The position numbers and the translations under genes are program-made. Of a DNA stretch of 6,013 nucleotides, positions 907 through 6,013 are shown one piece after another. Source of the stretch: Nitrospirota bacterium (GTDB lineage: Bacteria > JACPQY01); contig JACPQY010000014.1 in the NCBI GenBank assembly GCA_016190245.1, forward strand, positions 1-6,013. Reading direction: 5' to 3'. Positions within the stretch are counted from its first letter, which is position 1; every line of letters starts with the position of its first letter. The notes under the pieces were generated by a model. It had not been told where the DNA came from, ran no database searches, and worked only from the letters and a program-made list of their open reading frames with translations.

Positions 907-933
907 TCGTAGGGACCGATTCCTATCGGTCCG
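907..933. repeat. Family B hairpin repeat, intergenic copy
   Basis: A CTCGTAG tag is followed by a perfect hairpin: arm GGACCGAT at 913-920, loop TCCT, arm ATCGGTCC at 925-932. It has the same architecture (8-bp arms, 4-base loop, CGTAG tag) as the copies inside the cytochrome gene at 2510, 3071 and 3110. No T-run follows, so it is not an intrinsic terminator. Its position between divergent genes could place it in a 5' leader, but no regulatory role is shown. Confidence 0.85.
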
Positions 934-1357: not shown

Positions 1358-3736
1358 TCAGCGGTCCCTCCCAAAGAATTTTTCCCTGAAGCCTTCTGCG
1401 CTCGACCCGAGGTAGTGTTTGAGGATGAAGGTCGTGGGCAGACTTGTTTCCAAGATCGCGTGGCGGAGCGCACCGAACGAGGCGGGTGCGATGCCTTGAC
1501 CGTGGCACGTGAGGCAGGCGGCCTTTTCTCGGATGCTTCGGATCTCCTCGAGTGTGAGGGGGCGCGCGTTGGGATGATGGGTGACTTGAAGGGGGGTGCC
1601 GCACTCGTGCTGGAGGGGCTCGCCATCCATGGGCTCGCCTGGGGCGCGAGTACAGGGCCTTCCTGGCCCGTCGGGTCGTAGGAGGGCGTTGAGCGGGAAA
1701 TCGATGGAGGCGGGCAGGCCCGCCCTGGATTTGGCGGGCAGGCCCGGTCGGTCGGCGTAGAGATCCGTTCCGAGGCCGAGGGCGCGGAGGGAACGGTCGG
1801 CACACTCGCGCTGTAATGGCTCGGAGTCCATGGACTCGCCTGGGGCGCGAGTGCAGGGCCCTCCTGGCCCGCACCGCTCGATACCCCGCCTCACCCTCGT
1901 GGCTCGGCCAGCACTCGCAGTACAGGGCCCTCCTGGCCCGTGACAGTAGTCGCACGTGACCCCTTGGCGGCCGACCGTGTGGGGGGAGGAGGGGTTCATG
2001 GAAAAATTCGGCAGTCGGTAGTCGTGAGTCGGGAGGTGCGGGGTGGGAGGTGATGGGGTGTCGTGGATTGCGATCATGAGAGGTTGGCGGTCCAGAAGCC
2101 TGCGGCCGCTGCTGGACGTGACCGTGTAGAGAACTTGGGAGGACGGCACGAAGAGGGCGAGCTTGTCCCGGCGTTTGCCGAAGACGGGGTAGTTGCGCCC
2201 GGTGGGGGCATTCATGGGGGTGAGTGTCCACGCGCCCGGGGAGCGTTGGCCCGTCTGGAGGTCGGGCGCGGACTTGCGCTCGTCGTACTCCATGTGGCAG
2301 CCCAGATAGCACCGCGCGGTCCACTGGGTGTGGCAGGCGACGCATTCGACCTTGTCGAGGTGGGATGTGGTATGGGCGAGAGATGAAGACTGAGGCTCGA
2401 GTGCTGAGTGCTGAATGCTGAATGCTGAGAGCTGAGGAATGGGGAGGGGTTGGTTGTCGAGGCGGCGGTGGAGGATGGGTTGATCGCCCGAGCGAGTGAT
2501 TCTCAGTTCGGACGGATGAGAATCCGTCCCTACATGGCCGGAGGGCGAGGCCGAAGCCACATGACACGCCTCACAGGTGATGGTGGTGTGGTCCTCCATG
2601 AGGATCTTGTCCGGGCCGGAGCGCATGAGTTCCGACTCGGTGTGGCAATCTATGCAGACCATGCCTGCGGTGTAGTGGACATCGGGGGCGACGCTTTCGT
2701 AGGTGCCGCCGTGGAGGGAGACGGCCCGTACGTCGGTGGGCGTGAACAGGCCGTCGGCCGGGAACAGACCCCGGTAGGACGTGGCCTTCCTGCTGCCATT
2801 GTGGCACGTCTCGCACTGGGAGACGGGGATCTTCACGGTCATCTGGTGGCGCGTAGGGCCGGGAGACGTGGCGCTCTGCATGGCGTTGTCCGCGGTCTGC
2901 CGGCGGCCGTCGGTGGCGTACGGGACGTGGCAGGCGGCGCAGCCGGAGGAGCGGAAGTTGCCCTCGGGGGTGGAGGCGGAGCGGTTCTCGCTGCCCAGAT
3001 GGCAGGTGATGCAGGCTTTGCGGATGAGGTCGAAGCCCATTTGGAGGCGGAGGGGGAGTGGTTCGGAGGCGGACGGATCGGAATCCGTCCCTACGCGACG
3101 GACGCGAGGCTCGTAGGGACCGATTCTCATCGGTCCGGATTCGGACGCACCAGAATTCGCCCCTACGAGATCCGAGGGTTTCATGCGTTTGACATCGTCG
3201 AGGGTGAGGCGAGGCAGCTCGATCTCGTCGCCCACGAAGGAGCGGAGGATCACGCGGATCTGGCCGACGGTGGTGGCATGTGGAGAGTGGAGGATGCCTT
3301 CGACGTTCTGGGGGTGGCAGGGGCCGCACGCGAGGGGCGCGAGACGGAGATCGGAGGGGTTGCGGACGATGGGAGGGTGGTGCTTTGCTCGTGAGTCGGG
3401 AGTCGGCAGTCGGGAGTCGGAAGCGCCGAGCAGGATGGGGCGGGAGATGAGGTCGGGGGGAATCTCCGAGTGAGATGAGGGAAGGTGGCAGAACAGACAG
3501 TAGGGGTCATCGTGAGTCGTGATACTCGCCCTTCTCGCGCGGCCGTCCTGGCCGCTTGGGCCTGGGCGAGTACCGCGCCCTCCTTGGCTGGGTCGGGAGT
3601 CGTGAGTCGAGGGGCGGGCATTCAGATTCTCGAGGATGGCGCGGGTGCAGTCGGGTTGGATGTCTTCGATGCCCGCGTGGCAATCGGCGCAGGGCTTTGC
3701 CATGGGGGTCGAGACCATGAGCAGGAGAGGCAGCAC
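1358..3736 (-). CDS. Multihaem c-type cytochrome (11 CXXCH plus 1 CX3CH), laden with in-frame repeats
   Basis: From the GTG at 3736 this is 792 residues with a short hydrophobic leader (MLPLLLMVSTPMA) directly before the first haem site. CXXCH motifs start at Cys16, 80, 137, 242, 266, 308, 361, 388, 465, 595 and 741; Cys476 begins a CX3CH motif (CYLGCH). Several His residues outside the motifs (for example in SLHGG, PDVHYTAGM, EDHTT and SHLDK) are candidate distal haem ligands. Haem would be attached in the periplasm or outside the cell, and the expected role is electron transfer. The segments CETCHNGS...SYRGLF and PDVHYTAGMVCIDCHTESELM resemble, from memory, large multihaem cytochromes of Desulfobacterota and Nitrospirota; I cannot name the subfamily. 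The gene starts two bases after the propeller gene's stop, so coupling is likely. The start is uncertain: GAGGG (3754-3750) is 13 bases from the GTG but seven from a CTG at 3742, and an ATG lies at 3718. About a quarter of the protein is encoded by short repeats, all between haems. Confidence 0.88.
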   Translation of the reverse strand: MLPLLLMVSTPMAKPCADCHAGIEDIQPDCTRAILENLNARPSTHDSRPSQGGRGTRPGPSGQDGRARRASITTHDDPYCLFCHLPSSHSEIPPDLISRPILLGASDSRLPTPDSRAKHHPPIVRNPSDLRLAPLACGPCHPQNVEGILHSPHATTVGQIRVILRSFVGDEIELPRLTLDDVKRMKPSDLVGANSGASESGPMRIGPYEPRVRRVGTDSDPSASEPLPLRLQMGFDLIRKACITCHLGSENRSASTPEGNFRSSGCAACHVPYATDGRRQTADNAMQSATSPGPTRHQMTVKIPVSQCETCHNGSRKATSYRGLFPADGLFTPTDVRAVSLHGGTYESVAPDVHYTAGMVCIDCHTESELMRSGPDKILMEDHTTITCEACHVASASPSGHVGTDSHPSELRITRSGDQPILHRRLDNQPLPIPQLSAFSIQHSALEPQSSSLAHTTSHLDKVECVACHTQWTARCYLGCHMEYDERKSAPDLQTGQRSPGAWTLTPMNAPTGRNYPVFGKRRDKLALFVPSSQVLYTVTSSSGRRLLDRQPLMIAIHDTPSPPTPHLPTHDYRLPNFSMNPSSPHTVGRQGVTCDYCHGPGGPCTASAGRATRVRRGIERCGPGGPCTRAPGESMDSEPLQRECADRSLRALGLGTDLYADRPGLPAKSRAGLPASIDFPLNALLRPDGPGRPCTRAPGEPMDGEPLQHECGTPLQVTHHPNARPLTLEEIRSIREKAACLTCHGQGIAPASFGALRHAILETSLPTTFILKHYLGSSAEGFREKFFGRDR
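1601..1670. repeat. Family C long direct repeat, copy 1
   Basis: This 70-bp segment matches 1802-1871 at about 59 of 70 positions by hand alignment, with no gap. It contains CTCGCCTGGGGCGCGAGT (an inverted pair CTCGC/GCGAG) followed by the hairpin GGGCC-TTCCT-GGCCC. It encodes cytochrome residues about 689-712 (PCTRAPGEPMDGEPLQHEC). Confidence 0.85.
1709..1746. repeat. Paired GGCGGGCAGGCCCG elements
   Basis: GGCGGGCAGGCCCG occurs at 1709-1722 and again at 1733-1746. The first copy extends to a perfect inverted repeat, GGCGGGC/GCCCGCC, with a 2-base centre (1709-1724). Both lie between the two 70-bp family C copies and encode the repeated peptide GLPA at residues 665-676. Confidence 0.75.
1802..1871. 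repeat. Family C long direct repeat, copy 2
   Basis: This is the second copy of the 70-bp unit, exactly 201 bp (67 codons) from copy 1, so both are read in the same frame. It encodes residues about 622-645 (PCTRAPGESMDSEPLQREC). The hairpin core is GGGCC-CTCCT-GGCCC at 1857-1871 or so. Confidence 0.85.
1911..1940. repeat. Family C short copy (hairpin core only)
   Basis: GCACTCG, then a TACAGGGCCCTCCTGGCCCG segment, repeats the terminal part of the 70-bp units. The hairpin is GGGCC (1925-1929), loop CTCCT, GGCCC (1935-1939). It encodes GPGGPCTASAG, immediately after the haem motif CDYCH (residues 595-599). Confidence 0.8.
2013..2061. repeat. Family A heptamer array in the cytochrome (AGTCGGG type)
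   Basis: The in-phase units AGTCGGT, AGTCGTG, AGTCGGG, AGGTGCG, GGGTGGG and AGGTGAT, plus a weaker seventh unit, cover this stretch. They encode about residues 559-575 (SPPTPHLPTHDYRL), between the CX3CH site and the eleventh CXXCH site counted with it. Confidence 0.75.
2389..2437. repeat. Family A heptamer array in the cytochrome (GCTGAAT type)
   Basis: Seven in-phase 7-bp units occur: ACTGAGG, CTCGAGT, GCTGAGT, GCTGAAT twice, GCTGAGA and GCTGAGG. They encode residues about 434-450 (LSAFSIQ HSALEPQ), a peptide with its own seven-residue periodicity, between the haem motifs CEACH and CVACH. Confidence 0.85.
2510..2533. repeat. Family B hairpin repeat in the cytochrome
   Basis: GGACGGAT at 2510-2517, loop GAGA, ATCCGTCC at 2522-2529, then the tag CTAC. 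The arms pair perfectly. It encodes VGTDSHPSE (residues 402-410), ten residues after the haem motif CEACH. Confidence 0.85.
2884..2911. repeat. Possible degenerate family A heptamers
   Basis: CGTTGTC, CGCGGTC, TGCCGGC and GGCCGTC can be read as four degenerate 7-bp units. They encode about DGRRQTADNA (residues 276-285), between the haem motifs CAACH and CETCH. The phase is weaker than in the other arrays. Confidence 0.4.
3071..3095. repeat. Family B hairpin repeat in the cytochrome (first of a triple cluster)
   Basis: GGACGGAT (3071-3078), loop CGGA, ATCCGTCC (3083-3090), tag CTACG. The arms pair perfectly. It encodes VGTDSDPS (residues 215-222), nearly the same peptide as the copy at 2510. 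Confidence 0.85.
3110..3136. repeat. Family B hairpin repeat in the cytochrome, opposite orientation
   Basis: The tag CTCGTAG precedes GGACCGAT (3117-3124), loop TCTC, ATCGGTCC (3129-3136). It is nearly identical to the intergenic copy at 907-933 and has its tag on the opposite side from the copies at 2510 and 3071. It encodes GPMRIGPYE (residues 201-209). Confidence 0.85.
3143..3167. repeat. Degenerate family B element
   Basis: GGACGCAC, then CAGAATTCGCCCCTACG, has the overall layout of a family B element, including the CTACG tag, but the arms pair only partly. It directly follows the 3117-3136 hairpin, making three elements within 97 bp. It encodes LVGANSGAS (residues 190-198). Confidence 0.55.
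3387..3421. repeat. Family A heptamer array in the cytochrome (AGTCGGG type)
   Basis: GCTCGTG, AGTCGGG, AGTCGGC, AGTCGGG and AGTCGGA run in phase. They encode SDSRLPTPDSRA (residues 106-117), between the second and third haem sites. Confidence 0.85.
3523..3571. repeat. Nested inverted repeat (family C type)
   Basis: Outer arms ACTCGCCC (3523-3530) and GGGCGAGT (3564-3571) enclose an inner perfect hairpin GCGGCC-GTCCT-GGCCGC (3539-3555). The inner loop (TCCT) matches the family C hairpins at 1650-1670 and 1925-1939. It encodes residues 56-72 (TRPGPSGQDGRARRASI), just before the second haem site. Confidence 0.75.
3591..3611. repeat. Family A heptamer array in the cytochrome, three units
   Basis: GGTCGGG, AGTCGTG and AGTCGAG are three in-phase units, exactly 21 bp. 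They encode PSTHDSRP (residues 42-49). The array lies 20 bp from the nested inverted repeat, so two repeat families are stacked between haems 1 and 2. Confidence 0.75.
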
Positions 3737-3738
3737 GT

Positions 3739-6013
3739 TCAGGGTTGGACCCTCAGGATGTGAGATCCGGTGGAGACGAGGATCGAGCCGTCGGCGGCCA
3801 CGGCAAGTCCCGCCGCGGCAGGGAGGGCTTTCTTGAGGGAGATGTTGGGCAAAGAAGGGTTCTGCACTCCGAGGCACACCAAGGGCGTAGCGAAAGCGAT
3901 GCCGGAGCCGATACACAGTGTCTGCCCGGAGAGCGCGAACTGCGCCCATGTGGCCGGGAGGGCGGTGGACACAAGTGTTGACAGGAGGCTCGGCGAGGCA
4001 CCCACCGTGATGTCGTAGATCCTGAGCGTCGGCCCGAGGCCGGTCTGCACGCTCGTCAGGTAGAGGTGGTTGCCGGAGACAAACACGCTGTTCGGCGTCT
4101 CCCCGGAAGGGAGCGCTACGGTGGACAGGATGGAAGGGGAGGTGGGGATGGACACGTCAATCACGTGGATGCCTTGCGTCCCGGAGGAAGGCGAGGAGAA
4201 GGGCACGTAGCAGTAGGAGCCCGCACACGCGAGATTGGTGAGGGCGGGGGCGTTGGGGATGGGCAGCGAGGTCGGCCCGAGGAGGTTGGCGGGGTCGGTC
4301 GCATCGATCGCCTCGAACTTGTCGGTGGCGTTCGACACGCCGAACACGTAGTTCCCCAGAGCGGCAAGGCTCGAAAGCGTGACGGTGAGCGTATCCGACA
4401 GCGCGGGGGCCGCGGGCGCGGCCAGGGAGTAGCTTCTCAGTCCGAAGAGCGTGACCGCGAAGAGCCAGCCGGGGCGGGTGGTGAGGTAGGTGGCGTACGC
4501 CGTGGCGGAGGGGATCTTGTGGACGGACTGGAGCGTGACCGCGTCGATCGTGTGGAGGGCGTAGCCCCACTTGGAGAGGGCGTAGAGATAGGCCCCTTGG
4601 CGTTCCATGAGGCCGATCTCGTCGTCGGTCGAATCGAGCAGCGTGTAGGAGAGCTCGGTTGGAGCGGAGGGGCTGGACACGTCCACGATCGAGAGGCCTG
4701 TTGTGATGACGACGCCCGAGGCTGTCGTGCGAGTGGCGTAGAGGCGATTGGACGAGAGGAGGAGCTTGCCGAACAGACCGGTCGAGCCGCTGCCGAGCGA
4801 GCCGAGCAGGGAGATGGCGCCCGGGTTTGTGACATCGAGGGCGAGGAGCGTGGGGGCCGACGACGCCCCGAGCGAGAAATACGCGGTGTTGCCCGAGACG
4901 GCCAGATCGAGTCCGCCCGTTCCGACGGCGAGGTTGCGCGAGGGGTTGTACGTGCCGAGGAGCGCGGGGATCTGCGGGTTGGAGACGTCGTGCACTTCGA
5001 GCGTGAGAGGGTAGGGGGGCGCCGTGCTCGAGACGAGCAGGTAGAGGCGCGTGCCCGAGAGCGTCATGGATTGGACGATCTTGCCCGTGAGGGGGGTGTT
5101 GGACTTGAGGCCGAGCTGGAGGTCGTAGAGGGCGAGATAGTTGGCGGAGGTCGAGAGATCTTTCCAGACGGCTGCCAGGAGGTTCCCCCCCGCGCGCATC
5201 ATGGCGAGGCCGGGATTGGAGATGCCGGTGGGCACGGGGAGTGTGGAGGTGCGCTTGAGGCCGAGGCCGAGACGGCCCTGCGAGGGGTCGGAGAACTCGA
5301 AGGCCCCGATTTCCGGCGTGGGGCCTACCGCGAGGGGGATGTACAGCGTCCGGTTGACGTACCCGGATCCACCCGTGAGGAGTATGGAGGTGCCGGCGGC
5401 AAGGGGCACGTAGTCCCCCGAGGGTTGGGAGTCCGCACCGGCGAGGAGACTCACCGCTCCGAGGCCGAGCGTGAACAGATAGCCGTTTCCCCAGAGGCGG
5501 TCGGTGCTGCCGGAATGAACATAGGGCAGGATCGAAGTCGAGAGCGGTGCCGCGGAACCGGGCTTCACGGCGGTGAGCGCGGGCGACGCGGGATTGGCGA
5601 CGTCGAAGAGACACGACCCGCCGTCCCAGCAGGGAACATGGAGAGTGGAGCCGACCAGATTGAGATCGCCGTTCGAGATGACGCGTTTCACGAGGGTGGG
5701 GGCGCTCACGGCGGGTTGCATGAACGTGACCGTGATCGAGGCCGCGCCCACGCGCGTCTGGGAGTCCACCGCTTCTACGGTGAGGACATGGCTGCCGCCG
5801 GAGTAGTAGGTCGGATCGACCGAGCCGGAATAGGGAGCGGCTGTGAGCGCCGCCAACGGGGCTTGGTCGAGGTAGAAGTAGACCGTTGTGGGGGCGACGT
5901 CATTCGTGACGGTGGCCGACAGCGTGAAAAGTTGTGGTGGAAGAAAGGCGCCGGTGGCGGGACTGGTGATCGAGAGGGCGATGGGGGGCAGCGGGGGCGG
6001 GCCGCCGGGTGGA
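3739..6013 (-). CDS. Ig-like and LVIVD-repeat beta-propeller surface protein (N-terminus outside window)
   Basis: The frame is open from the right edge to the TGA at 3739, giving 757 residues; the true start is outside the window. A TTG at 5856 would cut through a domain and is unlikely to be the start. After a proline-rich linker, residues about 9-97 form a bacterial Ig-like domain (ALSITSPATGAFLPP, VYFYLDQAPLA, SGGSHVLTVEAVDSQ, ASITVTF). The rest is a beta-propeller array with LVIVD-like repeats: FDVANPASPAL (about 136), VHDVSNPQIPALLGTY (341), LDVTNPGAISLLGSL (393), SIVDVSSPSAPTEL (444), AIDATDPANLLGP (569), HVIDVSIPTSPSIL (617) and IYDITVGASPSLL (665). Nearby cysteine pairs (CWDGGSC, CAGSYC) could form disulfides, consistent with an exported protein. 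LVIVD proteins are usually cell-surface or secreted, with poorly known functions; binding is the likely role. The gene is free of the short repeats that fill the downstream cytochrome gene, and the close spacing suggests one operon. Confidence 0.88.
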   Translation of the reverse strand, partial: PPGGPPPLPPIALSITSPATGAFLPPQLFTLSATVTNDVAPTTVYFYLDQAPLAALTAAPYSGSVDPTYYSGGSHVLTVEAVDSQTRVGAASITVTFMQPAVSAPTLVKRVISNGDLNLVGSTLHVPCWDGGSCLFDVANPASPALTAVKPGSAAPLSTSILPYVHSGSTDRLWGNGYLFTLGLGAVSLLAGADSQPSGDYVPLAAGTSILLTGGSGYVNRTLYIPLAVGPTPEIGAFEFSDPSQGRLGLGLKRTSTLPVPTGISNPGLAMMRAGGNLLAAVWKDLSTSANYLALYDLQLGLKSNTPLTGKIVQSMTLSGTRLYLLVSSTAPPYPLTLEVHDVSNPQIPALLGTYNPSRNLAVGTGGLDLAVSGNTAYFSLGASSAPTLLALDVTNPGAISLLGSLGSGSTGLFGKLLLSSNRLYATRTTASGVVITTGLSIVDVSSPSAPTELSYTLLDSTDDEIGLMERQGAYLYALSKWGYALHTIDAVTLQSVHKIPSATAYATYLTTRPGWLFAVTLFGLRSYSLAAPAAPALSDTLTVTLSSLAALGNYVFGVSNATDKFEAIDATDPANLLGPTSLPIPNAPALTNLACAGSYCYVPFSSPSSGTQGIHVIDVSIPTSPSILSTVALPSGETPNSVFVSGNHLYLTSVQTGLGPTLRIYDITVGASPSLLSTLVSTALPATWAQFALSGQTLCIGSGIAFATPLVCLGVQNPSLPNISLKKALPAAAGLAVAADGSILVSTGSHILRVQP

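Follow-up and report, generated by a model that had tools for sequence, protein, structure and literature searches.

A dodecahaem cytochrome gene probably interrupted in frame by three families of dispersed repeats

Repeats known within and between genes

GTAG-tagged REPs are thought to be moved by RAYTs, which are single-strand transposases, and an adjoining RAYT gene is common, though not universal. Described GTAG-tagged REPs include in-frame intragenic singles, dimers and clusters that encode tens of residues (Di Nocera et al., 2013; PMC3733652). TIR-flanked relatives of RAYTs (TIRYT) with GGGGWSAS terminal repeats have also been described (PMC3733652). In Rickettsia, palindromic elements with CGTC-tagged ends lie in frame within genes that stay open (PMC3733652), and heptanucleotide repeats are known from Calothrix, Nostoc and Xanthomonas (PMC4692102).

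The window analyzed here, meaning the whole stretch of 6,013 bp, is the entire contig JACPQY010000014.1 of a MAG of 3.29 Mb, estimated to be 85% complete. It carries a multihaem cytochrome gene in which palindromes of the GTAG type occur. As in the described superfamily, these have an unpaired GTAG at one end, an 8-bp stem and a short loop, form sub-families with complementary stem changes and head-head and tail-tail dimers, and are mostly extragenic, with some in-frame intragenic copies. Unlike the described cases, no flanking RAYT was found here, two unrelated repeat classes occupy the same host gene, and that host is a multihaem cytochrome, whereas the earlier work emphasizes DNA-repair genes (PMC3733652). 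An earlier interpretation of this DNA, made without database searches (the sequence-only reading), had named the Rickettsia elements as precedent. This is a fair comparison with regard to palindromes in open genes, but the intragenic GTAG-tagged REPs are closer (PMC3733652): the phylum here is a different one, other repeat families share the gene, and the hairpin was rejected as a Rickettsia element because its tag is GTAG, not CGTC. The heptamer arrays resemble the heptanucleotide repeats in that 7 bp is the commonest period, but their units differ and they also occur in frame inside housekeeping genes. Intragenic GTAG-REPs and Rickettsia elements are thus already known; what is new is the presence of three families in one gene, together with a repeat load that no other gene in the 597 kb surveyed reaches.

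The cytochrome gene and its repeat blocks

The features of the gene, and one repeat outside it, are as follows.

1358-3736, minus strand: dodecahaem c-type cytochrome gene, 792 aa, GTG start, one open frame, 12 haem motifs
3511-3602, minus strand: insert A, residues 45-76, GC-rich double-hairpin element adjoining short heptamer runs
3368-3447, minus strand: insert B, residues 97-123, heptamer array GACTCCC/GACTGCC, read as DSRLPTP (TRF 3389-3420)
3060-3180, minus strand: insert C, residues 186-226, cluster of three GTAG-REPs (3071-3094, minus; 3113-3136, plus; 3143-3166, minus, degenerate)
2505-2541, minus strand: insert D, residues 399-411, single GTAG-REP (2510-2533, minus)
2390-2436, minus strand: insert E, residues 434-449, heptamer array CAGCATT/CAGCACT (TRF)
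2294-2311, minus strand: haem 10 motif CYLGCH, residues 476-481, atypical CX3CH
2004-2053, minus strand: insert F, residues 562-578, heptamer run
1803-1947, minus strand: insert G, residues 597-645, GC-rich element, two tandem units 69 bp apart
1595-1674, minus strand: insert H, residues 688-714, one GC-rich unit
909-932, plus strand: intergenic GTAG-REP copy, with a heptamer array close by at 790-818

The predicted haem sites comprise 11 CXXCH motifs and one CX3CH, and Pfam assigns the product to Cytochrome_C7-like. The nearest NCBIfam model is that of ExtM (NF040943), a selenite/tellurite-operon cytochrome that shares the haem-motif core; at 151.9 bits, far below the curated cutoff of 800, the product would be a distant ExtM-like cytochrome outside the ExtM equivalog by the bit-score criterion. 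There was no sequence match in the PDB, and Rfam gave zero matches within the 6,013-bp window. An AlphaFold2 prediction (the cytochrome with two homologues) had a mean pLDDT of 31, and the insert positions could not be placed in it. At haem 10, one extra residue turns the CXXCH of 18 aligned homologues into CX3CH. A putative atypical haem site of the CX3CH form is on record for ImcH and for some homologues of CymA (PMC6295460), so that this site need not be dead.

The eight repeat blocks amount to approximately 220 residues, or about a quarter of the length of the gene. Seven were delimited by comparing the DNA of the gene with stretches from elsewhere in its genome, and residues 434-449 were added by a TRF tandem scan. 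The sequence-only reading had proposed invasion by at least three repeat families within a 792-codon open frame, and both the frame (1358-3736, minus strand) and the invasion are borne out; relatives of the blocks were found elsewhere in the genome. Seven of its eight listed insertion sites hold. The remaining one, residues 276-285, has no repeat match and aligns to conserved orthologue sequence (YATDGRRQTAD / YADDGRSHSSD). Its block at residues 600-712 is indeed repeat DNA, but is not a single block, since two insertions flank a conserved ALGLGT. Between inserts G and H, at 1700-1755 of the window, there is a short GC-rich palindrome-like duplication (GGGCGGGCCTGCCCGCC), unassigned to a family.

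Insertion judged from orthologues, codons and copies

The orthologue panel used for gap and spacing comparisons consisted of 19-20 sequences from other lineages at 30-35% identity. A closer orthologue was sought in 386 genomes and in G001, a member of the same family and the only family relative compared, which has no copy of the gene; the best identity found was 35%. In alignment with the panel, repeat residues lie opposite gaps, with a mean gap fraction of 0.70 versus 0.16 for other residues (equally extreme in 2 of 746 circular shifts). The spacing of haem motifs is expanded accordingly, to 64 residues versus 18-27 in orthologues for h1-h2, 57 versus 34-36 in most orthologues for h2-h3, and 146 versus 46-95 for h11-h12, with the caveat that h8-h9, h10-h11 and h3-h4 are likewise long in some orthologues. 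The intervals h4-h8 and h9-h10 are free of repeats and near orthologue spacing, h7-h8 being 27 residues in all and h9-h10 differing by the one residue of the CX3CH; we therefore interpret the repeat-loaded intervals as those that tolerate a change in length.

Codon structure separates the two parts of the gene. Repeat codons have GC contents of 0.68/0.65/0.66 at the three positions, with no codon bias and a coding score of -0.20 per codon, in comparison to 0.62/0.52/0.835 and +0.21 per codon for non-repeat codons, whose score is near that of other multihaem genes and which show the genome's normal third-position bias (0.835). Finally, copies of the repeats are dispersed in the source genome, with 41 of the GTAG-REP, mostly extragenic, and 15 of the GC-rich element found by search. 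These three independent lines of sequence evidence (orthologue gaps and spacing, codon structure, and dispersed copies) concur in pointing to insertion.

The GTAG-REP family and its possible mover

The count of tandem arrays and the host-gene rankings covered 597 kb of same-genome stretches containing repeat matches. The GTAG-REP pattern (GTAG followed by GGACSSAT TCYN ATSSGTCC) has 41 copies in the source genome and three in G001. Reversed-pattern controls for this repeat and the GC-rich element gave no matches, and the copy numbers of both are far above chance. Among 26 distinct copies, columns 1-4 (the terminal unpaired GTAG) are invariant, partly by construction, given that copies were retrieved with a pattern containing GTAG. 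In the 8-bp stem, 95.7% of cells are paired, the covariation score is 0.294 versus 0.092 in shuffled alignments, and 21 cells are changed on both sides versus 7.7 in shuffles (0 of 500); single strands fold as the predicted hairpin. Neighboring copies form eight head-head and six tail-tail pairs, with a head-head spacer of 8 bp in seven of the eight.

Although 87% of the sample is coding, only about 7 of the 41 copies are intragenic. All eight convincing intragenic GTAG-REPs (L140, L147, L139 and the window) share one reading phase, read as VGTDSxPS or GPMRIGPY. This common phase is suggestive, being at the 3% chance level for approximately five independent events with two mostly stop-free phases per strand.

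Eight Y1 (TnpA-type) transposase genes were examined (G000; C13, C79, C28, C68, C22, C74 and C81; loci L133, L134 and L151-L156), and none of the eight has a GTAG-REP within 500 bp in this 85%-complete genome. Six or seven of them are flanked instead by inverted repeats of their own with GGGG(A/T)C ends, in which they resemble TIRYT (PMC3733652). Mobilization of the GTAG palindromes by one of these transposases, most of which have such repeats, was considered and is unsupported; the mover may lie in the missing part of the genome. Judged on its tag, stem, dimers and distribution, the hairpin is nonetheless a member of the GTAG-tagged REPs, though one lacking the link to a transposase.

The GC-rich element and heptamer arrays

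The GC-rich unit is approximately 70 bp in length, with a usual tandem spacing of 69 bp and the terminus GTAC-W-GGGCC-KTCST-GGCCC. There are 15-19 copies in the source genome and none in G001, which together make up the coverage of the phylum. A related 88-bp element constitutes insert A, which has an 88%-identical copy on C83 as well as others.

Among tandem arrays, a period of 7 is the most frequent, accounting for 63 of 241 arrays in the 597 kb, 25 of them within called genes. The case for heptamers rests on these tandem arrays, as the heptamer pattern search gave 64 matches versus 30 in its control; insert B has up to 37 matches in the genome. A 7-bp unit encodes an identical seven-residue cycle whatever the frame, such that a stop-free array is stop-free in all phases. 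In-frame arrays were found in a GMC oxidoreductase gene and in the following three genes.

L137, 3931-6645: valyl-tRNA synthetase (ValRS)
L116, 4649-6757: methionyl-tRNA synthetase (MetRS)
L145, 16081-17229: MnmA

At the position of the array, most homologues of ValRS, MetRS and MnmA (64-68% identity in G001, plus more distant ones) are shorter or have a gap, whereas one distant MetRS carries its own low-complexity stretch at the site. In-frame repeats are therefore tolerated in presumably essential genes.

Repeat load

The sequence-only reading had regarded several families in one cytochrome as unusual. With families defined from the cytochrome itself, its eight blocks cover 623 bp, or 26% of its length, and the next gene has two blocks and 7%. 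Self-comparison again places the cytochrome first, at 15.6% in five blocks, with others at 12.3% or less and in no more than two blocks. Both rankings are confined to the 597 kb sampled.

Translation, decay and selection

We consider it probable, at roughly 0.8, that members of the dispersed GTAG-REP, GC-rich and heptamer families interrupt a dodecahaem cytochrome gene at eight sites without breaking its frame. The REPs and GC-rich units would have been inserted by DNA-level transposition or copying, while the heptamer arrays would have expanded through slippage. Events that shifted the frame or damaged the haem core would then have been lost, and the product would be translated with loops enlarged by approximately 220 residues. 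That frame and haem core are under selection, as proposed earlier, is supported by normal codon bias outside the repeats and by motifs that are intact and in order. The related argument that no haem motif is broken was set aside, given that about 61 of the 792 residues (under 8%) belong to motifs; the position of all blocks between haem sites is likewise true but nearly automatic, and carries little weight.

The most probable of the rivals is decay. In a pseudogene released from constraint, repeats would accrue as they do in intergenic DNA, and a GC-rich frame could stay open by luck. The cytochrome exceeds every other gene examined in repeat load by a wide margin, the families are elsewhere largely (GTAG) or often extragenic, haem 10 is altered, and the open frame alone is weak evidence, as another frame of the coding strand has only two stops. 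Against this, all 12 motifs share one frame and follow the order seen in orthologues, GC3 outside the repeats is normal, and in-frame heptamer arrays also occur in essential genes of this genome. Furthermore, seven or eight net insertions kept the frame; for seven of random length the naive chance is (1/3)^7 = 5e-4, a figure that assumes independence and ignores the choice of the case for its openness. Decay is thus unlikely in our estimation. It is less probable still that the inserts are selected additions providing new surface contacts or haem spacing. The exceptional load and the single phase of intragenic GTAG copies would fit this, but insert codons lack a coding signature, the same families are intergenic, and approximately five independent insertion events put the shared phase at no more than a 3% chance level, given two stop-free phases per strand. 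As for an assembly error that fused unrelated pieces at repeats, the contig is short and the MAG incomplete; yet the same orthologous protein continues in order and frame between inserts, and most inserts are probably below read length, which makes such an error scarcely credible.

Beyond the reading of in-frame interruption of this one gene, it is conceivable, if rather doubtful, that the lineage habitually decorates translated proteins genome-wide with stop-free heptamers and fixed-phase GTAG-REPs, essential genes included, and that the cytochrome is the extreme case. The gene serves as a natural map of insertions in a multihaem cytochrome, distinguishing inter-haem intervals that accept tens of extra residues from those that do not, and shows the extent to which the loops of such a protein can stretch. 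It is also a concrete case of extragenic repeats turned into coding sequence, and adds a phylum sampled by two genomes to those with in-frame REP decoration, alongside heptamers in essential tRNA-synthetase genes.

Genomic context

The gene immediately upstream of the cytochrome, at 3739-6012 of the window, runs in the same direction and encodes a product in which a Big_7 domain is combined with LVIVD repeats. The stop of this upstream gene almost abuts the start of the cytochrome gene, which suggests that the two may form a single operon.
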